In this document: in pieces, positions 3,711-31,074 of the stretch
Position numbering within the stretch: position 1 is the first letter of the stretch
How the letters are laid out: each line of letters opens with the position of its first letter
Assembly: GCA_009773185.1 (NCBI GenBank)
Contig: WPIF01000001.1
Location: 62,001-126,000 of the forward strand
DNA length: 64,000 nucleotides
Reading direction: 5' to 3'
From: Nitrospirota bacterium
Lineage (GTDB): Bacteria; Nitrospirota; Thermodesulfovibrionia; Thermodesulfovibrionales; UBA1546
Translations under genes and position numbers: made by a program
The notes under the pieces: model-generated
What the model saw: the letters and a program-made list of their open reading frames with translations, nothing else
Told to the model about the DNA's origin: nothing
The model's database searches: none

Positions 3711-5186
3711 CTACCTCTTATATTTTCTATTCATCCGCACATATTCAAGCAGTTCTGAATTTCCCGAGGCGCTGTATTCAGCTTTATTCCATATTTTTTC
3801 AGCGCCCTTAAAATCTCCCTCCGTTTCCTTCTTGACTGCAAAGTCTACATATTTTTTTGTAACAGACATGTTTATTCTTCCCATCTCCTTATATTCATCG
3901 TTCGCTTTCTGATATTCCCCATCTTCAAGATATATCCGATATAGATTCCACCTTACGACAAGTGAATTTGGCGCAATCTTAACTGCGCTTTCGAAAAGAG
4001 TTCTGTCATTTTTCCACTCAAGTGTTCTCATTAAACTCAGAGACGACAATGCGATTATCAATATGCATACTACAGCCAATATAAGCCTTTTTAATTTGTC
4101 GCCGCCTAAAAAAACCCCGATGAGTATACAAAGGGCAGCCAGCGGCATGTATATATACCTCTCAGACATAACATGCCCAATTATAGGGATAACATTGGCA
4201 ATAGGGAAAAGCGTTATCACAAAAAACATCAGAGGCATTGCCCTGTAATCCTCTTTCCTGATAAAAATGGATGCAAATAACATTAACCCAAACATAAAAA
4301 TAGCCACTGCTGCGACATGCGGATGAAAAGGCGAGGTTATCCATTCAATATCATGCCTGATTGATAATCGCACAGGCCAGAATATAATCTCAAAATACTT
4401 TATGAATGCGGATGCAGTTGTATAAATGGATATCAATGGACTGCCCAATATATATTCTCCACCTTCCTGTCCCGGTGACACATAAAATATCATCAATAAG
4501 TACATAACGGTTATTGCAATAACAGGGGAAACACAATATATAAGCATTCGTCTTGCATTTTGCCTGTATATTACTAATGCTGCAACCGCTATAAGAGGAA
4601 TTACCAATGCAGTTTCTTTGGAAAAAAGGCCCATAATAGTTGAAAGCGATAAGATATAAGAATATCCTGCATGTTGTTTGTCTGATGTGGAAATCATGAA
4701 TATACAATAGAGCGATATGAGAGTAAATAATGTTGCAAGAATCTCCTTTACATTGGATATGCCTGCAACAGATTCAGTTGTAGCGGGATGGACTGCAAAT
4801 ATCAAGGCAACAAGAAGCGGAAACAATTTTTGTTTTGATATTAACGATATCACCTGGAAAATCATAAAAGCTACGCACGCATGAAGGAAGATTGATAATG
4901 CATGAAGATATACTGTGTGCGGCCCGGGCAGGGATGTTACAATTACAAAAAGTATAGTCCTTAGAGGGCGATAATACGACCCGCCGATGCCTGAACTCCC
5001 GGCTTCCCTGTCCATGAAAATATCTGAAATCTTGCCGGAAAATGAAATTTTCTCCGCTTTAGGTATAAGATATCTGTCATCCCATGTGTATCCATTGAAT
5101 ATTCCAACCCCGTGAGCAGCCAGCACAACCGCAAGCACCAAAATAAATGTAATGCCCCTTCTAAAAACAACAGCCTGAACTTTCAT
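3711..5186 (-). CDS. TMTC-like GT-C glycosyltransferase with C-terminal TPR
   Basis: A 491-residue membrane protein. After the first helix the external loop holds the paired acidic residues typical of GT-C enzymes (TWDDRYL, about residues 34-40), and the family signature HPATTESVAGISNVKE follows near residue 135. About ten helices are followed by a soluble C-terminus (about residues 405-491) with TPR-like helices (VRWNLYRIYLEDGEYQKA). Related eukaryotic TMTC and bacterial proteins transfer sugars from polyprenyl-phosphate carriers to exported proteins; the acceptor here is inferred, possibly the adjacent cytochrome. It starts 7 nt after the 5194-7320 gene, with an AGGGA ribosome site. Confidence 0.8.
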   Translation of the reverse strand: MKVQAVVFRRGITFILVLAVVLAAHGVGIFNGYTWDDRYLIPKAEKISFSGKISDIFMDREAGSSGIGGSYYRPLRTILFVIVTSLPGPHTVYLHALSIFLHACVAFMIFQVISLISKQKLFPLLVALIFAVHPATTESVAGISNVKEILATLFTLISLYCIFMISTSDKQHAGYSYILSLSTIMGLFSKETALVIPLIAVAALVIYRQNARRMLIYCVSPVIAITVMYLLMIFYVSPGQEGGEYILGSPLISIYTTASAFIKYFEIIFWPVRLSIRHDIEWITSPFHPHVAAVAIFMFGLMLFASIFIRKEDYRAMPLMFFVITLFPIANVIPIIGHVMSERYIYMPLAALCILIGVFLGGDKLKRLILAVVCILIIALSSLSLMRTLEWKNDRTLFESAVKIAPNSLVVRWNLYRIYLEDGEYQKANDEYKEMGRINMSVTKKYVDFAVKKETEGDFKGAEKIWNKAEYSASGNSELLEYVRMNRKYKR

Positions 5187-21430: not shown

Positions 21431-22453
21431 TTAGGTATCGCCTTCAAGTTTTTGGATATGACTCATCATAGCATCATACAATCTCTCTGCCGTAATCGTA
21501 GAATTATCTGCATCTGCCCTGAAACTGCAAAAATCTTTTGAGGTAGATAAGACTTTCTCCCCTGTTCCAAAAGTTTCAATTTCCCATGGCGGCCCCTGGG
21601 AGAAAAAACTCAAAGTCGGCCTCATCTGTGCAATTGCCAGATGCAAGGCAAGGCTGTCACTGCTGATCACATAATCAAGGTGTTTTATAATTGCCGCGAA
21701 TTCCAGTAATGAATTATTGCTTCCGGTATCAATAACATTGGGGCTCTTTACAGACCCCTTTATTTTATTGTGTCTGTCGATTTCAGCTTCAGCGCCAAGA
21801 AGAAAGATCCTTGCCGGTTTACCATTAAGACTGAGAGGCAATAACATATGAACAAGTTTAATTGCTTCGTCAACTCTTAACTGTTTGGAAGGCCATCTTC
21901 CTCCAGAGCCGCTATTGATCCCGATATTAAAACAATCCGTCGGAAACATGCCTTTATTTGATTTTTCTATTTCCGGGGAATTAAAAAATATCGGAGAAGG
22001 GATTTTAATATCTAACAACAACTCCATGAGTTCCTTATGTGACCGCCTGTTCTGCTGTTTTAATTTGTCAGCCCGTTCCTTGCCATACCTTGATATCAAA
22101 CCTAAATCAAACCATATTGAAGCGCTATCGGTATAAACTGGCTGTTCACTATTGTCCAAATATGAGCCGATGAGTTTTTTGAACTTAAAATTTTTTAATA
22201 AGTGTAAAACTTCAACCTCATCATCTAACGAAATAAGAAGATCAAAATAAACATCGAACAAATATTTCATATTAAGAGTGGGCGTAAAGAGACCGCATAT
22301 ATATGGATTGAATCTCAACAAGTCAAATGAAGAATTGCTCGTCAGCCACCACACTCTCGGATCGCCGTATTTCTCCATTAAACCAGGTAGAATAAATGAT
22401 GTTCTCACCACGTCGCCCAGCGCGCCGAACTTCATTATCAGAATATTTTTCAT
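21431..22453 (-). CDS. GT9-family (heptosyltransferase-like) glycosyltransferase
   Basis: A 340-residue GT-B protein. The N-terminus MKNILIMKFGALGDVVRTSFILPGL has the GxLGD motif of ADP-heptose:LPS heptosyltransferases; NIGINSGSGGRWPSKQL and the SSDSLALHLAIAQMRPTLSFF segment match the GT9 donor site. It adds a heptose or related sugar to the lipid core or glycan. It follows the HldE-like gene immediately, as expected if that gene feeds its donor. Confidence 0.88.
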   Translation of the reverse strand: MKNILIMKFGALGDVVRTSFILPGLMEKYGDPRVWWLTSNSSFDLLRFNPYICGLFTPTLNMKYLFDVYFDLLISLDDEVEVLHLLKNFKFKKLIGSYLDNSEQPVYTDSASIWFDLGLISRYGKERADKLKQQNRRSHKELMELLLDIKIPSPIFFNSPEIEKSNKGMFPTDCFNIGINSGSGGRWPSKQLRVDEAIKLVHMLLPLSLNGKPARIFLLGAEAEIDRHNKIKGSVKSPNVIDTGSNNSLLEFAAIIKHLDYVISSDSLALHLAIAQMRPTLSFFSQGPPWEIETFGTGEKVLSTSKDFCSFRADADNSTITAERLYDAMMSHIQKLEGDT

Positions 22454-22455
22454 GT

Positions 22456-23823
22456 TCAGCCCTTTGAGATGCGTTCAATCTTTATTTTCGCGGCGCACTC
22501 TTTTTCCAGAACAGCGTCACCGTCCTGTTTTTGCCTCAGGGTCACCACATCAGGCATCATTTCCTTGATCACATTAAGGGGCGGGGCCGTGTCGACCAGC
22601 ACTACATAGTCGATAAGTTCCAGCGCCGTCAGGACCTCCATCCGTTCCTCCAAATTGGATATTGTTCCCCTGCCGCCATGATGTTTCCCGGCGCTCTCGT
22701 CACTGACGATCCCAACGATGAGGACGTCACCCCTGCTTTTTGACTGTTTCAGGAAGGAGATATGCCATTTTTGAATGCTGTCAAAGAAACCGTAGGTGAA
22801 AACGACCTTTTTCCCCTTATACCGCAGATCGTTCATCAGGTTCTTGAGCTGGCCGCTGTGGACCAGCTTCTTGTTTCTGCCTTCCTGCGCCGTCATCAGT
22901 TCGATATATTCGATGGGGGCAGTCCCACTCTTACCCACCACTATGCCTGATGCCTTATTTGCCAGATGGATGGACGTAGCCAGATCAAGACCGCTTCCGA
23001 TGGAAACGGCAAGAGTTGCTATTACTGTGTCGCCTGCGCCTGATACATCAAATACCTCTTTAGCCTCCGAATGAAAATGAAGCACATCATCTCCCGATAT
23101 TAAAGACATTCCTTTTTCCGACCGCGTAACCAATATGTTCTTGAATCCGAACTCCTTCAGTATACGGCGCCCGTACTCCTCAATTTCATTGTCCTCATTA
23201 ACGATGTCAATGCCGCAAGCATGGCTAAGCTCTCTAACATTAGGCTTGACTATCGTAGCTCCTCTAAATTTATTCCAATCCCTGCACTTTGGGTCAACGA
23301 GTACGCTGATGTTTTTCTCACCAGCGGACTTTATAATATAATCACAAAGCTCAGGGGTACATACGCCTTTATCATAGTCTGAAATAATCACCGTATTTAC
23401 GCATTGAAGACTCTCGTTCACATGTTTTATTATTTGTTTTATGTTACTATGCTCAAGCGTTATCGTCTCCTCAAAATCCAGCCGTACGATTTGCTGATGC
23501 TCGCCAATCACTCTTACTTTCGTGATTGTAGGATGATCGGTCTCCACAAGAAATGATTTTACATTTATTTTATCCAATAAATCAGAAAGAATTTTTCTAT
23601 TGAGATCTCTCCCTACAACGCCTATTAAACTCGCATTGCCATGAAGGTGCGCGATATTATTGGCTACATTTCCAGCGCCACCGGGAGTAAAATAGGATTT
23701 ATTAACCTTTACTATAGGTACCGGCGCTTCAGGAGAAATACGGCGGACAACCCCTTTGTGGAATTTATCCAGCATAATGTCGCCGAACACCAGGATTGAT
23801 GCTTTTGAAAAATCATAATCCAT
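22456..23823 (-). CDS. HldE-like sugar kinase fused to a degenerate nucleotidyltransferase domain
   Basis: About 455 residues. Residues 1-310 are a clear PfkB/RfaE kinase: FGDIMLDKF, RISPEAPVPIV, GGAGNVANNIA, and VSGAGDTVIATLA with the catalytic Asp. From about 335 the cytidylyltransferase-fold domain of HldE follows, but its nucleotide-binding motif, normally FDxxHxGH, reads FDSIQKWH, the VKGGDY-type segment is absent, and the C-terminus is short. The kinase half is therefore likely active and the transferase half dead or altered. The C-terminal DNA (22456-22960) looks richer in GC than the kinase part. The start is the ATG at 23823 with AAGGAG 6 nt upstream. Confidence 0.85.
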   Translation of the reverse strand: MDYDFSKASILVFGDIMLDKFHKGVVRRISPEAPVPIVKVNKSYFTPGGAGNVANNIAHLHGNASLIGVVGRDLNRKILSDLLDKINVKSFLVETDHPTITKVRVIGEHQQIVRLDFEETITLEHSNIKQIIKHVNESLQCVNTVIISDYDKGVCTPELCDYIIKSAGEKNISVLVDPKCRDWNKFRGATIVKPNVRELSHACGIDIVNEDNEIEEYGRRILKEFGFKNILVTRSEKGMSLISGDDVLHFHSEAKEVFDVSGAGDTVIATLAVSIGSGLDLATSIHLANKASGIVVGKSGTAPIEYIELMTAQEGRNKKLVHSGQLKNLMNDLRYKGKKVVFTYGFFDSIQKWHISFLKQSKSRGDVLIVGIVSDESAGKHHGGRGTISNLEERMEVLTALELIDYVVLVDTAPPLNVIKEMMPDVVTLRQKQDGDAVLEKECAAKIKIERISKG

Positions 23824-23834
23824 AAATGACTCCT

Positions 23835-24527
23835 TCAATATATTCTTCGCAGTATATCCAATTCCCCGATTCGCATTGTTCTGGCGCCATCAAGCATTTT
23901 GCATATAACATCCGCCATTTCATCCGGATCTATAAATTTATCATGGTCCTTTCGTCCTGCGGACATATCAGTTGACATCGCGCCTGAGTAAATATTTATT
24001 ATTAAAACATTCGCTCGCAAAGCCTCGAATTGAAAAGACCCCATGAAGCCTCTGAGACCGTGTTTACCTGCGCTGTACGCCGCTTCAAGATCGCTGAAAT
24101 TTTTTCCTGCAAGGGAATTAATGTTGACTATCAGTCCGAACTTCCTTTTTTTAAACAACTCAAAAATTTTTTTTGTAAGAATTACCGGAGCTATTAGATT
24201 TACCTCGATTATTTTTCTGAATTCAGATATGCTCATTTCTGAAACGCTTTTTCCGAGATAATCGCCGGCATTATTGATTAAAACATCAACCTCATGCCTG
24301 TTTGCACAATCAGTCAATTTTTGTATGGTCTGTCCTTCCACTATATCACCGCTGACAATCTCACAGGCGACATTATACTTTGCAATCTCACCTTTTAAGG
24401 CATAAAGTCGCTTTTCATCCCTGCCATGTATGACAACATTATGGCCTGCTTTTGCAATTGCTAAAGATAAACTTCTGCCCAGCCCTCTGCTTGCTCCAGT
24501 AATTAGAACGGTTTTCGGTTTTGACAT
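23835..24527 (-). CDS. SDR-family oxidoreductase
   Basis: A 230-residue classical short-chain dehydrogenase: VLITGASRGLGRSLSLAIA (NAD(P) site), NNAGD, INSLAG serine region and YSAGKHG (catalytic Tyr and Lys). It oxidises or reduces a carbinol or ketone, presumably of the sugar made by this cassette. It sits between the MDR dehydrogenase and the HldE-like gene. The GGAG of its ribosome site is formed by the last codons of the dehydrogenase gene. Confidence 0.88.
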   Translation of the reverse strand: MSKPKTVLITGASRGLGRSLSLAIAKAGHNVVIHGRDEKRLYALKGEIAKYNVACEIVSGDIVEGQTIQKLTDCANRHEVDVLINNAGDYLGKSVSEMSISEFRKIIEVNLIAPVILTKKIFELFKKRKFGLIVNINSLAGKNFSDLEAAYSAGKHGLRGFMGSFQFEALRANVLIINIYSGAMSTDMSAGRKDHDKFIDPDEMADVICKMLDGARTMRIGELDILRRIY

Positions 24528-24528
24528 A

Positions 24529-25575
24529 TTACTCCATATTTATTATTACTCTTCCTGTTTCGCCTTCCCTCATTTTATTTAAGGCAGTGTTGGTTTCATC
24601 CAGCGAAAATCTATGGGTAATAAGTTCCGTTAGATTTAGTTTTCCTTCCAAGAATAGTCGTGAATATCTCGGTATGTCTTCCGCCGGATCCGTCAATCCT
24701 CCCAGACTGGCAAAAATCATCTTGCCGCCATAGTGCTTACCAAACGCATCAATCTTGAGAGATTGGTCGAATCGCGGCTGTCCTACCAAAATAGTCCTGC
24801 CTGCTTGAGACGTTAATTCATATGCACATGCAATATTATCCACATTACCGGTACATTCAACAAAGACATCCACCCCACTCTTGCCAACTATTTTTAAAAT
24901 TTCTTCTTTAACATTAACCTTCGTTGAATTAATGGCATGGGATGCGCCAAATTTAGAAGATAATTGCAATTTGGAGTCAAACTTATCAATAGCAATAATA
25001 GGGTATGCAGAAACCATTACAGCGCCTTGAATGACATTCAATCCTACGCCTCCACTCCCAAAAACCGCGATTGACTGCCCGATTTTTAATTTTGCCTCGT
25101 TGTTAATGAGTCCGAATGCAGTTGTTACAGCGCATCCCATCAGAGCGGCGACTTCAAATGGGACCTCTTTCGGAATCGAGGTGACGCGGTTCTCCGACAC
25201 CACCGCATAGTCGTTGAAGGTCGTCACCAGGCCGCCGCCCACGATTGCGTCCCCTCTCTTGTATTTGGGAAAGGACGACTCGATGCCTTTTCCCGTGCGC
25301 CAGTGCATGACCACGTGGTCGCCCTTGCGCACGGTGGTAATGCCCGGCCCGGTTTCAATCACCACGCCTCCGCCTTCGTGTCCCATCAAATGAGGCAAAA
25401 ATCTGTCCTCGCCAAACTTGCCGTCTATCTCACCAATTTGTTTACCGCAAATACTGCTGCACATGACTTTCACTAAAACTTGCCCAACATCCAATTTAGG
25501 AATACTTAGCTGGTCAATAATTAAAGGCAAATTCAACTTCTCAAGAAAAGCTGCTTTCATTTGAAAATCACTCAT
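24529..25575 (-). CDS. Zinc-type medium-chain dehydrogenase
   Basis: A 348-residue alcohol-dehydrogenase-like protein: MCSSICGKQIGEIDGK near residue 40 (first zinc-ligand region), GHEGGGVV, then GSGGVGLNVIQGA (NAD site) and the ECTGN segment. The structural-zinc Cys cluster is absent. It probably oxidises a sugar or polyol hydroxyl. Residues about 66-137 (25165-25385) are encoded by GC-rich DNA with G/C-ending codons, unlike the rest of the gene, which suggests a mosaic allele. The start at 25575 has GAGGA 11 nt upstream. Confidence 0.88.
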   Translation of the reverse strand: MSDFQMKAAFLEKLNLPLIIDQLSIPKLDVGQVLVKVMCSSICGKQIGEIDGKFGEDRFLPHLMGHEGGGVVIETGPGITTVRKGDHVVMHWRTGKGIESSFPKYKRGDAIVGGGLVTTFNDYAVVSENRVTSIPKEVPFEVAALMGCAVTTAFGLINNEAKLKIGQSIAVFGSGGVGLNVIQGAVMVSAYPIIAIDKFDSKLQLSSKFGASHAINSTKVNVKEEILKIVGKSGVDVFVECTGNVDNIACAYELTSQAGRTILVGQPRFDQSLKIDAFGKHYGGKMIFASLGGLTDPAEDIPRYSRLFLEGKLNLTELITHRFSLDETNTALNKMREGETGRVIINME

Positions 25576-25599
25576 AACTATTGTTATCCTCCTCTATTT

Positions 25600-26796
25600 T
25601 TAATAAAGCTCTTTCTTCTCACAAACCATTACAGGTGTTTTCGCAGATTTTGCAAGTTCATAGGCACATAAGACTTCTTCCGCTGTTTTTGGCTCATAAA
25701 CAGGAAATGACACTATTGAACGAAAAACATCTGTCATGTCACGCGTATGCGTCAGCCCAGCATAAAAAGGCTTTACTCCACCTGCAACAGCCTTAATAAT
25801 AACCGGCATGGTAAACTGTCCATCGGAAATGCATTCTATGATATCTAACGTATTGGCTATCGCATCAAAGGCATTCAAAACGAACTCATGCCTCTCGAAA
25901 AACAAAACCGGCCTATAGCCTTCCAAGGACACACCCATCGCCAGCCCAGCCATCAAATTCTCGGCAAGTGGAGTCTCAAGTCGCTGAGATTCAGGGATAT
26001 CCTTCAACGCGCCGTACGCTGAACCGTATTTAACGTTATATCCTATAAAAATTGCACCACAATCTTTTGCAATTGTTTCCATTGATTTCTTTACCGCATC
26101 AAAATATTTCAAGTTCGGGGCTGAGGGCAAATTATGCGGGAGTTCCGAGCTTTGTTTCCTGGGCATCTCGCACAAACAGGCTTCTTTTTTGAATTTTAGC
26201 CATCCTGATGTGCCTGTCCCTCCGTGTGGATATGTCGGCACATAGGAATATCGTCTTACACAGCTTGGCCATGCAAAATCGGAAGCTTCACCTCGTCTTT
26301 CTTTTTTGGAGGAGCTGACCGATCTGTCATTGTCTTCTATAATAAATGTACACGGTAAATTCCATCCATGGACATAGCTTACCGCTTCATAAAAATGTCC
26401 TTCTTCTTCGGCGCCGTCTCCTATAAAACACCAGACCTTTTTCTGGCTGCCTTTTCTTTTCAATGCCCATGCAACTCCAGCCGCAATGGAAGGTGTAGCA
26501 GCAACAATCGATGAACTAAAAAAATTCAGCGCTCTATTAAAAACAAACATGCTCTTACCGTTTAATATTTTGTCCTCCAACTCATCCGGCGGACCGCCAC
26601 ACAGAAGATAATGATAATGGGACCGATGGGTAGAAAAAATATAGTCCCCCTCATTTATATCCTTAAAAATATCGATTAAGTGATCCTCATTTCCCCCGGA
26701 CAAATGCACCAGATAAGGCATCTCGCCGTTATCAAATCGTTCAGCTATTTTCTTTTCAAAGTCAATTAAGTCTTTCCTGGTCATCTTATTCAGCAT
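25600..26796 (-). CDS. Thiamine-diphosphate E1-type enzyme, alpha and partial beta in one chain
   Basis: About 398 residues. The first half is an E1-alpha/transketolase PP domain with the ThDP motif GDGAEEEGHFYEA...IIEDND; the second half is an E1-beta-like Pyr domain with TPLAENLMAGLAMG, whose Glu would activate the thiamine ring. The usual transketolase C-terminal domain is missing. No lipoyl E2 is nearby, so a ketol-transfer or decarboxylating role on a sugar is likelier than an oxidative complex. The frame extends to 26871, but the ATG at 26796 (MLNKMTRKDL) has AAGGAG about 10 nt upstream. Confidence 0.82.
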   Translation of the reverse strand: MLNKMTRKDLIDFEKKIAERFDNGEMPYLVHLSGGNEDHLIDIFKDINEGDYIFSTHRSHYHYLLCGGPPDELEDKILNGKSMFVFNRALNFFSSSIVAATPSIAAGVAWALKRKGSQKKVWCFIGDGAEEEGHFYEAVSYVHGWNLPCTFIIEDNDRSVSSSKKERRGEASDFAWPSCVRRYSYVPTYPHGGTGTSGWLKFKKEACLCEMPRKQSSELPHNLPSAPNLKYFDAVKKSMETIAKDCGAIFIGYNVKYGSAYGALKDIPESQRLETPLAENLMAGLAMGVSLEGYRPVLFFERHEFVLNAFDAIANTLDIIECISDGQFTMPVIIKAVAGGVKPFYAGLTHTRDMTDVFRSIVSFPVYEPKTAEEVLCAYELAKSAKTPVMVCEKKELY

Positions 26797-26892
26797 TAAT
26801 ATATTTCTCCTTTTCCTGTCCCGGCTCCTGTTCAGGGATGCATGACTGTTCTTGTGTATATCTTTCTTCATTTTTATTAAAAATCCTTGTTC

Positions 26893-28050
26893 TCATTTAT
26901 CGGCCCCTTTCTTGAAAACCTCAGGAAATGATCTTGACAACTTCCTGAGCTTAAACCCCAGATCCAGGTTCTTAAAGGTACAAGTCAGAATACGGCAGCT
27001 TTTCCGACACTTTCTGATCATCTGTCTCTGATTACGCGCTTTATCAGAGTTCCATATTTTTTCAGGCAGGTCGTCCCTTAAGTTGCCTATTGGTTCCATG
27101 AGAGAACAAATCCTTACATTTCCAAAAGGGTCTATAGGAAAATTCTTGCTGCCTATCTTGCAAGGCAGCTTTAATATCTCAGGGTCAAGTGGGTTCTTGA
27201 GGTACTTACACATATAACTCAAATGCCGTGCTGAGTTGTTTATAGGATAACCTTCTGTTTTCATGGTGATAAGACGTTCAAAAACTTCGTCAATACCATT
27301 ACTGTTCTTCCCGAGTTCCTTAAAATACTTCCCTTCAGGCAACTGTCTGCTTTCCCCTTTCTCGTCAAAAATAGGCAGGGAAGAAGTCTCCATCAGCGGC
27401 TGAAATGTAATACCGTCAAGCCCCTTGTCTCGGGTAAATTCAGCAAGGTCAACAAGCTCACTGATATTTTCGTTTATTATGGTCGTACCTAAACTGAGCC
27501 ACATGTTCCCCCTGTTTTTTAGAAGCTCTATCACCCTCATTACATCACCGAAATTGCCTTCATCTCCCCTCATTCTGTTATGGACCCCTGGCGTTACACT
27601 ATTAAGGGAAAGAGCGAGCGAATCAAGTCCGGAAGAAACAATTCTTTCTGCAAGTTTCTTGTCGATCAGGGTAGCATTGGAACCAACAGTTGTAGTTATA
27701 TCTTTTGTAGTTGCAAAGTTTATGATATCTATCATGTCTTCTCTTAAAAAAGGTTCGCCTCCGGTAATAGAAAGACTAAAAGTCCCGATCCAGTTCTTTA
27801 ATTTTTCAATGACTGCTGTCCATTCCTTGAAATTAAGTTCTTTCTCATTAGGCTTGGACGTCCACCTGAAACATGTCTGGCATCTGAGATTGCAGGAATA
27901 TGTCCGCTCGATGACAACATCAAGCGGTTTAAGGACAGAATAATCAGGATTAAAAGCTTCAAATATCTCATCCGAAAAATACTTAACAATATACCTGAAA
28001 CCAAGCCTTGCTCTTATAATAACCCTTTTGTTAATTATTTTTTTAATCAA
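26893..28050 (-). CDS. Radical SAM/SPASM-domain protein
   Basis: A 385-residue protein with CNLRCQTC (CxxxCxxC cluster, near residue 53), ITGGEPFLRED and NATLID, then a C-terminal Cys-rich SPASM region (CKIGSKNFPID, CRKSCRILTC) for auxiliary clusters. Members modify peptides, sugars or lipids by radical chemistry. In this operon a sugar or a glycan-linked amine is the most natural substrate, by context only. The start is TTG at 28050 with AAGGA about 9 nt upstream. Confidence 0.87.
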   Translation of the reverse strand: MIKKIINKRVIIRARLGFRYIVKYFSDEIFEAFNPDYSVLKPLDVVIERTYSCNLRCQTCFRWTSKPNEKELNFKEWTAVIEKLKNWIGTFSLSITGGEPFLREDMIDIINFATTKDITTTVGSNATLIDKKLAERIVSSGLDSLALSLNSVTPGVHNRMRGDEGNFGDVMRVIELLKNRGNMWLSLGTTIINENISELVDLAEFTRDKGLDGITFQPLMETSSLPIFDEKGESRQLPEGKYFKELGKNSNGIDEVFERLITMKTEGYPINNSARHLSYMCKYLKNPLDPEILKLPCKIGSKNFPIDPFGNVRICSLMEPIGNLRDDLPEKIWNSDKARNQRQMIRKCRKSCRILTCTFKNLDLGFKLRKLSRSFPEVFKKGADK

Positions 28051-28053
28051 AAT

Positions 28054-28851
28054 TTAATGTTCCTTCGTATCGGCACAAGGTTTTTGAGCAATGATAAGAA
28101 TGCCGGCTGATAGGATATTTATTGAAATCGAATTCATAAGATAGGCTGCAATTTTTCCTAATATATTTAATGTATATAGCTTCTTACTCTGGAGATATGG
28201 GAATTCAGACCATAAGACAAGAGATCTGCTTTTATGGATAAAGTCATTAATGTCCGTTTCAATCACTTGGAACCCAGCTTCTATAATCATGCTGTAAGCC
28301 TCTTTTTTGGAATACCGGTATTCTGAAAAGTACTTATTGCCTTTAAGCGCACAATGGACCAGCAGATACAGTTCGCGCAAAGGATGGGCTACCATGCGGC
28401 GGAAAAGATTGTTAAAAGGCAGCGTGAATATCGCTATGCCGCCAGGCATTAAAACACGTTTTGCTTCACTGAGCGGCTTCTCAGGCCCTTCTTCGAAATG
28501 TTCCAGCACCCCTAAAGATATGTAAGCGCCCAAAGAATTGTCTTTATAAGGGAGATTGCAGATATCACCTTGCCTGGCAGGCAGGTCAGGCCTCATCTCA
28601 TTCAGCTTTGAAATCACATTCCAATCATAATCAATTCCCTCTACATTATATCCATTGTTTCTTAAATAGATTAACCATATTCCAAGGCCACAACCTGCCT
28701 CCAGTATTGGTTTATCTTTAGGCAGATATTTCAGAAAATAATTGAGCGTATTCCATTGAGGACAGTTTTTAATTTCATTTTCCAAAGAAAATCTCTTCCA
28801 CATATTTGCTTGCTGCTGAGACATATTTCTTATTGTGTATACCTTTTTCAT
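28054..28851 (-). CDS. Class I SAM-dependent methyltransferase
   Basis: A 265-residue protein with motif I LEAGCGLGIWLIYL, acidic motif II VEGIDYD, and the LGVLEHFEEG motif typical of this class. The C-terminal third is more hydrophobic and may touch the membrane. One of seven methyltransferases in the polysaccharide run. Confidence 0.87.
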   Translation of the reverse strand: MKKVYTIRNMSQQQANMWKRFSLENEIKNCPQWNTLNYFLKYLPKDKPILEAGCGLGIWLIYLRNNGYNVEGIDYDWNVISKLNEMRPDLPARQGDICNLPYKDNSLGAYISLGVLEHFEEGPEKPLSEAKRVLMPGGIAIFTLPFNNLFRRMVAHPLRELYLLVHCALKGNKYFSEYRYSKKEAYSMIIEAGFQVIETDINDFIHKSRSLVLWSEFPYLQSKKLYTLNILGKIAAYLMNSISINILSAGILIIAQKPCADTKEH

Positions 28852-29798: not shown

Positions 29799-29837
29799 GC
29801 CTTATCCGCTCCTTTTATTACTATGAAAGGATAAGGC
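29799..29837 (-). terminator. Hairpin at the 3' end of the AAA+ gene
   Basis: Perfect 9-bp arms gccttatcc (29799-29807) and ggataaggc (29829-29837) flank a 21-nt loop and overlap the stop codon of the AAA+ gene. Downstream on the minus strand is ATATTTTA, only a weak T-run, so termination is possible but not certain. Confidence 0.35.
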
Positions 29838-31035
29838 TTATAGGTATAGCCCAAAGCTTGTCTCCCATGTGGACGGCAGCAGTTCCGTTGTACGCCAGAA
29901 TCCCGGCTGCGCAGTGCGGTGTTGCGGCAACAAAGGATTTCAGTCCGGACAGCTCGTCTTTTTCCCACCGGGCAGCCGCCTTAACTTCAATCGCGATGCA
30001 TTTATTTCCCGCTTCGATGATAAAATCCACTTCGTGACGGCCCTGAATATTCCAGAAATACAGGCTCGCCTGCGGCCAGGTTGAATCGATAAGCCCGACA
30101 ATGTTTTGTGCTGCATATGTTTCTATCATCGCACCTCTAAGCGGATCATCCGAAAGGTCATCCTTCCCTGCCAGGTAACAGGCGAGTCCGGAATCTCCCA
30201 TATAGAATTTCGGAGATTTTATAAGTCTGCTGGCCGGGTTTTTGAGATAAGGAGCAAGCCGGTAGAAGATGCAGGATACTTCCATGATGGAAAGATAGCT
30301 GGAAACCGTTGCCGAGGTAAGACGGGCGTCTCTTCCCAGTTCGCTGATGCTCAAAACACTGCCTGTTCTCAGCGCAGCGAGGCGCAGCAAACCCCGAAAT
30401 GAAATAATGTTGCCGATGCGGCTCAGGTCGCGGATATCGCGGTCCAGATAGGTATGTTCGTATCCCTTGAACCAGTTGATTGTATTCTTCAGGCTTCCAA
30501 GGCAGACTGAAGGCATGCCTCCTTTGATAATCTCAGCCAGCGGTACCGGCGGTACTTCCGGCAGGCCGGTTATTGTCTGTTTTTCAAAGAACCTCCTTAT
30601 AAAAGGCCTTTCTGATAGTTGCTCCTTCAGTTCACGGCGTGTAAATGGATGCAGGTTGAAATATGCGGCCCTGCCGGCAAGGCTTTCGGAGATGTTTTTC
30701 ATCAGGAGGAAGTTTGCAGAACCGGAAAGAATAAATTTACCGGAGACCCTGTTGCGATCCACTGCACGTTTGATTGCAACGAACAGCTCAGGGCATCGTT
30801 GCGCTTCATCAATAGTTATGGGCTCATTAGTTTCAATAAAGCCATCAGGGTTTTCACGCGCTGCCGCCAACTGGGCAAAATCATCCAAGGTCACATATTT
30901 TCTACCCTGAAGTTCCGCCTGCTGTTGCAAGAAAGTGCTTTTCCCTGCCTGTCTCATGCCGGTGATGGCTACAACCGGCATGTCAGCGAGGGCGCTGACT
31001 ATGGAATTTGTAATTTCTCTCGGCAAATATGTCAT
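29821..31035 (-). CDS. AAA+ ATPase with DUF4143-type C-terminal domain
   Basis: About 404 residues. N-terminal P-loop GMRQAGKSTFLQQ, Walker B-like ITIDEAQRCPELF and a sensor-type SGSANFLL form an AAA+ core; a winged-helix-like stretch (ISELGRDARLTSATVSSYL) follows at about 230-255, and the C-terminal DUF4143 domain has EVDFIIEAG and IAIEVKAA, resembling a nuclease-fold core. Such proteins are common as isolated accessory genes; their role is not established. The frame could extend to 31074, but that overlaps the -35 box; the ATG at 31035 (MTYLPREITN) is preferred and implies a leaderless mRNA. It is out of place in a sugar operon. Confidence 0.87.
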   Translation of the reverse strand: MTYLPREITNSIVSALADMPVVAITGMRQAGKSTFLQQQAELQGRKYVTLDDFAQLAAARENPDGFIETNEPITIDEAQRCPELFVAIKRAVDRNRVSGKFILSGSANFLLMKNISESLAGRAAYFNLHPFTRRELKEQLSERPFIRRFFEKQTITGLPEVPPVPLAEIIKGGMPSVCLGSLKNTINWFKGYEHTYLDRDIRDLSRIGNIISFRGLLRLAALRTGSVLSISELGRDARLTSATVSSYLSIMEVSCIFYRLAPYLKNPASRLIKSPKFYMGDSGLACYLAGKDDLSDDPLRGAMIETYAAQNIVGLIDSTWPQASLYFWNIQGRHEVDFIIEAGNKCIAIEVKAAARWEKDELSGLKSFVAATPHCAAGILAYNGTAAVHMGDKLWAIPISLILS

Positions 31036-31045
31036 ATTTATATAT

Positions 31046-31074
31046 ATTATATTGTCATAATGACAATATGTCAA
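31046..31074 (-). promoter_or_regulatory. Consensus promoter of the AAA+ gene
   Basis: Minus strand TTGACA (31069-31074), a 17-nt spacer and TATAAT (31046-31051): an exact sigma-70-type consensus. The ATG at 31035 is 10 nt after the -10 box, so the expected transcript has almost no leader. Confidence 0.8.
31049..31069. promoter_or_regulatory. 21-bp palindromic operator between -35 and -10
   Basis: Perfect 10-bp arms atattgtcat / atgacaatat around one central base. It fills the promoter spacer, so a bound dimer would block RNA polymerase. Autoregulation by the winged-helix-containing AAA+ protein is possible but unproven. Confidence 0.65.

Follow-up and report, generated by a model that had tools for sequence, protein, structure and literature searches.

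What could be made by a bacterial gene cluster in which a heptose-type kinase stands next to a thiamine diphosphate (ThDP) enzyme and two dehydrogenases? The question is raised by a stretch of 64,000 nucleotides of a Nitrospirota bacterium (contig WPIF01000001.1, positions 62,001 to 126,000, assembly GCA_009773185.1; the whole stretch is called here the window). Seven open reading frames (ORFs) at positions 21431-28851 lie on the minus strand, spaced -4 to +24 nt apart. A first-pass annotation had described them as a tight run of a GT9 glycosyltransferase, a sugar kinase, a short-chain and a medium-chain dehydrogenase/reductase (SDR and MDR), a ThDP enzyme, a SPASM radical S-adenosylmethionine (rSAM) protein and a methyltransferase, and the ORFs, coordinates and Pfam families agreed with that description. 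By comparison with related loci, the MDR, the ThDP enzyme and the HldE-type kinase are genuinely co-conserved, often with the SDR and, in the clade of the window, with GT9. The cassette is mainly a phage-borne module, common in tailed phages and nearly absent from the genomes searched.

A co-conserved gene set carried mainly by phages

Taking the ThDP gene (E1 in what follows) as anchor, 93 loci, the window included, were reduced to 63 by removal at E1 identity ≥ 95%, and 56 of the 63 had a single-chain E1. Among these 56 the MDR was present in 53 and the HldE-I-like kinase in 48. The loci counts given here rest on the best 80 of 559 viral E1 relatives and the best 80 of 154 MDR relatives, and therefore they describe close relatives; the contig of locus L091 begins 80 nt before E1 and is covered on its downstream side. 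A large cyanophage-like subset has the composition (SDR)-MDR-E1-kinase-epimerase-nucleotidyltransferase-cupin-HAD in variable order, and in the E1-anchored set the epimerase was found in 25, the nucleotidyltransferase in 21 and the HAD protein in 18 loci. The cupin gene was seen in 18/63 loci (e.g., L038, 18025-18501) and bears the PHROGs family label cysteine dioxygenase. In locus L055 the MDR, SDR, kinase and E1 form a single run with a fusion of methyltransferase and GT9; a phage S-adenosylmethionine decarboxylase gene (3970-4407) adjoins the cassette there. The co-conservation whose absence would, by the first-pass annotation, refute its reading was borne out for the MDR, ThDP enzyme, kinase, SDR and GT9, and it failed for the rSAM protein and the methyltransferase, which fell outside the conserved core of the E1 loci. 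Since these two are not conserved with the core, the possibility that all seven genes form one conserved pathway was ruled out.

The MDR was used as a separate anchor. In the viral scan 154/233 stretches held relatives, and the best 80 gave 56 non-redundant loci (MDR identity ≥ 95%). Setting aside L162 and L184, which showed no ThDP gene on contigs that stop 247 and 959 nt past the MDR, a ThDP enzyme was present in all 54 loci with room for it. Three distant kinds of ThDP enzyme occupied this place and were mutually exclusive, no locus having two of them: a single-chain E1 in 39/56 loci, a two-gene E1 alpha/beta pair in 7/56 and a two-gene transketolase-like pair, formed by a pyrophosphate-binding (PP) and a pyrimidine-binding (PYR) protein, in another 7/56. 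Transketolase_C was matched by 6/6 beta chains scanned from the E1 pairs (L183 lay outside the scan) and by none of four PYR proteins scanned from the transketolase-like pairs; in L152 there was only a PP gene, or transketolase-N part. The kinase accompanied the MDR in 37/39 E1 loci and in 5/7 loci of the transketolase type. Relative to the E1-anchored set 31 of the 56 MDR groups were new, and 29 of those 31 had a ThDP enzyme. In a phage collection the MDR (E ≤ 1e-25) was detected in 8/50,697 records and in 4/6 records with a full-length E1 (chance about 0.001).

Across 245 genomes of the phylum the full-length E1 type was found in the window's own genome only, with partial or split matches in twelve others; within the order, 1/149 genomes had the E1 cassette, and three further members of the genus were negative. 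A genome scan with a single E1 sequence as query gave no relative, and a scan with each species represented by one genome gave at least 9 E1 relatives among the 596 stretches listed, several of them on short contigs of metagenome-assembled genomes. In IMG/VR an E1 relative was encoded by 559/600 candidate stretches. The named cyanophages S-SM2 and P-TIM68 have a full-length E1 (about 50% identical), and a 735-kb uncultured phage, present as two records, has E1 divided into two genes. The maximum-likelihood tree grouped the window E1 with nine viral contigs (clade support 100/97), its sisters being 70 and 68% identical to it. Head, terminase, connector or tail genes stand beside the cassette in L050, L054, L055 and L058 of this clade, and L051 has a tail gene on the contig; because virion genes adjoin the cassette, these contigs are phage and not mislabelled bacterial DNA. 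This mainly-phage nature of the gene set had been overlooked in the first-pass annotation. Viral scans with the window rSAM protein and with the window HldE-like protein as queries gave no relative, such scans detecting close relatives only.

Domains and catalytic residues of the encoded enzymes

The ThDP enzyme had been taken for a single-chain E1-type protein without C-terminal domain and without E2, and both statements held. It matched E1_dh (67.4 bits) and Transket_pyr (27.4 bits) with no Transketolase_C match, no E2 or lipoyl family was present among ten window proteins scanned, and its closest sequence kin were E1 subunits of 2-oxo-acid dehydrogenases, with homology to both alpha and beta. 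An AlphaFold model was obtained from 45 aligned sequences with a mean predicted local distance difference test of 90.3; the first ~25-29 residues of the ORF are probably untranslated or disordered. In fold comparisons of the model, the PYR half aligned with E1 beta (Z 23.5, 170 residues) and the full chain with transketolases (Z about 20-21.5 over about 350-363 residues; at Z 21.5 the root mean square deviation was 4.5 over 363), and the model stops where the PYR domain of transketolases stops. Residues E304, which occupies the position of the cofactor-activating glutamate, and H375 were invariant in 45/45 sequences. There is also a family motif, E326-R327-(H)-(D/E)-F330, in which E, R and F were conserved in 45/45 relatives; E326 and R327 were absent from the transketolase and E1 beta sequences of the same genome (L140, L141; the usable own-genome reference rows of the alignment were L139, L140 and L141). 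A viral structure library compared with the model gave nothing at E ≤ 0.001. From another phage group, a 171-residue transketolase-like PYR-domain protein of Campylobacter virus IBB35 (H6SUI2) showed a weak fold match (E 7.8e-3).

The MDR is alcohol-dehydrogenase-like, with the structural-zinc lobe missing, and its catalytic zinc ligands were conserved among 53 relatives (C43 and H66 in 52, C148 in 53). Residue 197 was acidic throughout (D in 50/53, E in 3/53), which goes with NAD use in this superfamily. In the SDR (adh_short, 144.6 bits) the Ser-Tyr-Lys residues were found in 20/20 relatives and R36 in 13/20, the latter suggesting NADP as cofactor. The GT9 protein was above the PF01075 cut-off (29.6 vs 22 bits) and below the named heptosyltransferase equivalogs of NCBIfam, with 45.8 bits at best vs the 185.3 of heptsyl_trn_I. 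Genes for RS1/RS2-type SPASM rSAM proteins, searched with models built from locus L041 only, adjoined E1-like genes in 6/10 loci without MDR (L040, L041, L042, L044, L047 and L083) and, at ≥ 30 bits, in 0/53 loci with MDR, the window rSAM scoring 27 bits; perhaps this type replaces the dehydrogenase where the MDR is missing.

The sugar kinase of the first-pass annotation matched PfkB (129.9 bits) and HldE domain I, and a degenerate HldE nucleotidyltransferase domain in the same ORF had been overlooked. The protein was HldE-like across residues 9-432 (NF008454, 433.9 bits vs a cut-off of 521); domain I was above its cut-off (TIGR02198, 365.1 vs 345 bits) and domain II far below (TIGR02199, 83.4 vs 181.5 bits). 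The GAGD motif of the kinase was intact, as in 48/48 relatives. At the HxGH position, kept in 22/22 phage nucleotidyltransferase relatives, the window has IQKWH. The same genome holds a second HldE domain I (contig 27, 42% identical to that of the window) and, outside the window, an HldE domain II that stands apart and looks intact (contig 15); the window kinase is thus an extra copy. A GmhA-like gene lies on contig 20.

Heptose-type partners and the possible product

In the cassettes scanned, the best NCBIfam match was HldD for the epimerase and HldE-II for the nucleotidyltransferase. HldD-, HldE-II- and phosphatase-like genes are further members of many phage loci, and L043 has GmhB above one curated cut-off (TIGR00213) together with a bifunctional HldE. 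Eight f27 genomes of the phylum carry a sister lineage whose E1 alpha/beta is split and has no C-terminal domain; in 8/8 loci a GHMP kinase, a nucleotidyltransferase and a DegT aminotransferase surround it, along with two epimerase-family genes. The locus scanned from it, L027, gave HddA, HddC, an RfbH-like enzyme and GDP-fucose synthase as best matches, all below equivalog cut-offs; L049 has relatives of this kinase and nucleotidyltransferase and L048 of the kinase. Because the kinase is HldE-I-like in one lineage and HddA-like in the other, E1-like enzymes adjoin two unrelated heptose-type kinase kinds. GmhA was rare: no such gene is in the window cassette, and a GmhA-like gene stood beside E1 in 1/63 and 0/12 loci and in 3/39 E1-bearing MDR loci. 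The proposal that E1 stands in for GmhA in bacteria was rejected for now, since GmhA-like genes were present elsewhere in 9/9 bacterial genomes tested, among them that of the window.

A further combination of ThDP and heptose enzymes was seen in the same genome. On contig 25 a second glycan locus (L144, 92-15219) combines a full-size E1 alpha/beta pair of canonical type with an adjoining GmhA-like gene; it also encodes a nucleotidyltransferase-kinase HldE-like fusion and has one NeuB-like gene, one rSAM-like ORF and two DegT-like ORFs.

Considering these partners, we put it at about an even chance that the cassette is a mobile, mainly phage-borne module for a C2-extended heptose-type sugar, located in the window within a bacterial surface-glycan locus. 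A heptose-type substrate, either a sugar phosphate or a nucleotide sugar, would first have one hydroxyl oxidised by the MDR; to the resulting carbonyl the ThDP enzyme would attach a two-carbon unit, after which the SDR would reduce the new ketone, the kinase and nucleotidyltransferase would activate the sugar and GT9 would transfer it. The analysis shows which genes occur together, that their catalytic motifs are preserved and that three ThDP enzymes replace one another; the order of steps, the redox directions, the product, the choice of a heptose as scaffold and that of pyruvate or a ketose as donor are inferred. Such a series, with an NAD-type oxidation, then ThDP carboligation and then a reduction of NADP type, resembles the step order of C2-branched sugar synthesis. 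In AviB1/AviB2, Pau11/Pau12 and KbDH a C2 branch from pyruvate is placed onto keto sugars, as shown or proposed, and a ketoreductase follows (PMC4753412, PMC4425429, PMC12247030); the E1-like pair transfers, or is proposed to transfer, the acetyl unit (PMC4753412, PMC4425429, PMC10338323, PMC12247030), and Pau11 and Pau12 have 325 and 345 residues (PMC4425429).

Such enzymes, which make C2 branches in sugars of antibiotics and include EvdU5/EvdS3, resemble the ThDP enzyme of the window in being of E1 type, in having no E2 and in lying in a sugar locus with a dehydrogenase or ketoreductase partner. They differ in having two full-size subunits with Transketolase_C instead of one 423-residue chain without it, and their partners are TDP-sugar 4,6-dehydratases, whereas those of the window are a heptose-type kinase, an MDR and GT9 in a phage setting; the alpha/beta architecture of Pau11/Pau12 is matched by the full-size E1 pairs of seven sister cassettes. 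With the ADP-heptose pathway (GmhA, HldE, GmhB, HldD) the cassette shares the HldE-type kinase and GT9, to which phage loci add relatives of HldE-II, HldD and the phosphatase; it differs by the rarity of GmhA, by the added MDR, ThDP enzyme and SDR, and in the window by the degenerate nucleotidyltransferase. Transketolase and DXS have the same PP+PYR fold (Z about 21), and a transketolase-like pair can occupy the ThDP slot, but they are three-domain proteins, while the window enzyme has no C-terminal domain, is nearer to E1 in sequence and has its own ER(H)(D/E)F motif. The E1 of 2-oxo-acid dehydrogenase complexes has an E2/lipoyl partner, which did not appear among the ten proteins scanned from the window. 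YerE, of yersiniose synthesis, also uses ThDP chemistry to put a C2 branch on a keto sugar, for an O-antigen, but it is a flavoprotein of the acetolactate-synthase kind, from another ThDP superfamily. No description of the module was found in the full-text literature searched, which includes few subscription journals; two articles name phage S-SM2 (PMC10452541, PMC4053976), and their accessible parts do not mention it. The parts come from known families; what appears new is their combination as a module, its distribution among phages and the replacement of one ThDP enzyme by another.

Several observations weigh against a C2-extended heptose as the product. The names HddA, HddC and HldD are best hits below equivalog cut-offs and no proof of substrate, and the cassette could act on another phosphorylated aldose. 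The SDR was present in just 20/56 single-chain-E1 loci, and a GT9-like gene within 5 kb of E1 in only 10/56, three of them sources of the search model; seven of these ten fall in the ten-member E1 clade of the window, GT9 being common there only. In five of those ten members no kinase was found within the available DNA, some contigs being short. Locus content varies, and the nucleotidyltransferase domain of the window looks dead, so that the separate HldE-II of the genome would have to serve. Finally, the transketolase-like replacement leaves the type of donor ambiguous: these pairs speak for ketol transfer, whereas the E1 pairs match the architecture of acetyl transfer. The scheme of the first-pass annotation, with ketol transfer, oxidation and kinase steps before GT9, is kept insofar as C2 transfer, kinase and GT9 fit the heptose-type partners and the ThDP exchange, and is narrowed by excluding the rSAM protein and methyltransferase from the core.

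A more specific picture is put forward tentatively. Tailed phages may carry a self-standing, exchangeable pathway for an undescribed C2-extended heptose (nonose-type or C2-branched), with one slot filled by any of three distant ThDP enzymes, which would serve virion-protein glycosylation or host-surface remodelling, and the window's bacterium may have taken the module into a glycan locus. If so, ThDP carbon-carbon chemistry would be joined to heptose-type sugar activation, a whole sugar pathway would be moved by phages, in some contigs beside virion structural genes, and whether three distant ThDP enzymes catalyse one reaction would become testable; unusual sugars on phages or host surfaces would be relevant to adsorption, superinfection and defence.

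It is unlikely, by our estimate, that the cassette is instead an alternative supply of heptose 7-phosphate, in which the ThDP enzyme would form a C7 ketose phosphate by ketol transfer and the MDR and SDR would convert the ketose to the aldose via the alditol, replacing GmhA. The transketolase-like pairs in the ThDP slot and the near absence of GmhA-like genes from the cassettes are in its favour; the GmhA-like genes of all nine bacterial genomes speak against it, as do the transketolase genes that the window's genome also has. Two further explanations are considered less probable still, and equally so. In one, decarboxylation of a 2-oxo acid by the ThDP enzyme would give an aldehyde, and the alcohol made from it by the MDR would be phosphorylated and attached; the kinship with 2-oxo-acid dehydrogenase E1 and the alcohol-dehydrogenase-like MDR agree with this, but the exchange with a transketolase-like pair and the heptose-type kinase and nucleotidyltransferase partners indicate sugar substrates. 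In the other, the window cassette would be a decaying acquisition without function, consistent with its degenerate nucleotidyltransferase domain, its absence from every other genome of the order sample and GC-rich patches of 0.50-0.58 (a peak of 0.58 within the MDR gene, 25100-25400, and about 0.50-0.52 over the degenerate domain, 22400-23000) in a stretch otherwise mostly at 0.36-0.46; the core ORFs are however all open, E1, MDR, SDR and kinase keep their catalytic motifs, and the nucleotidyltransferase is also absent from many phage loci. A chance neighbourhood of unrelated glycan genes, conceivable because surface-glycan loci are mosaic and the rSAM protein and methyltransferase are not conserved with the rest, is very improbable given the co-occurrence from two anchors and the overlapping gene ends, and is refuted for the MDR, ThDP enzyme and kinase.

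Arrangement of the locus in the window

The genes belong to an unbroken minus-strand series, GT2, methyltransferase, rSAM/SPASM, E1-like, MDR, SDR, HldE-like, GT9 and GT4, in which some gene ends overlap. The features are collected in Table 1.

Table 1. Features of the minus-strand run, in window coordinates.
Feature	Coordinates	Strand	Basis
GT9 (heptosyltransferase-like) glycosyltransferase, 340 aa	21431..22453	-	PF01075; best NCBIfam heptsyl_trn_I, below cut-off
Degenerate HldE domain-II-like nucleotidyltransferase, residues 335-460	22459..22836	-	TIGR02199 below cut-off; HxGH lost
HldE domain-I-like PfkB kinase domain, residues 9-317 of ORF 22456-23838	22888..23814	-	TIGR02198 above cut-off; GAGD intact
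SDR, FabG-like, 230 aa	23835..24527	-	PF00106; S138/Y151/K155
Zinc MDR dehydrogenase, ADH-like without structural-zinc lobe, 348 aa	24529..25575	-	ADH_N + ADH_zinc_N; zinc ligands
ThDP enzyme in one chain of 423 aa; PP and PYR domains present, transketolase C-terminal domain absent	25600..26871	-	Pfam, AlphaFold model, E304/H375
Radical SAM/SPASM protein; operon member, outside conserved core	26893..28050	-	Radical_SAM + SPASM
Class I methyltransferase; operon member, outside conserved core	28054..28851	-	Methyltransf_11

The two GC-rich patches look as if they came from intragenic recombination. Within the glycan locus there is also an ORF at 29821-31074, assigned by eye to an AAA-type ATPase.

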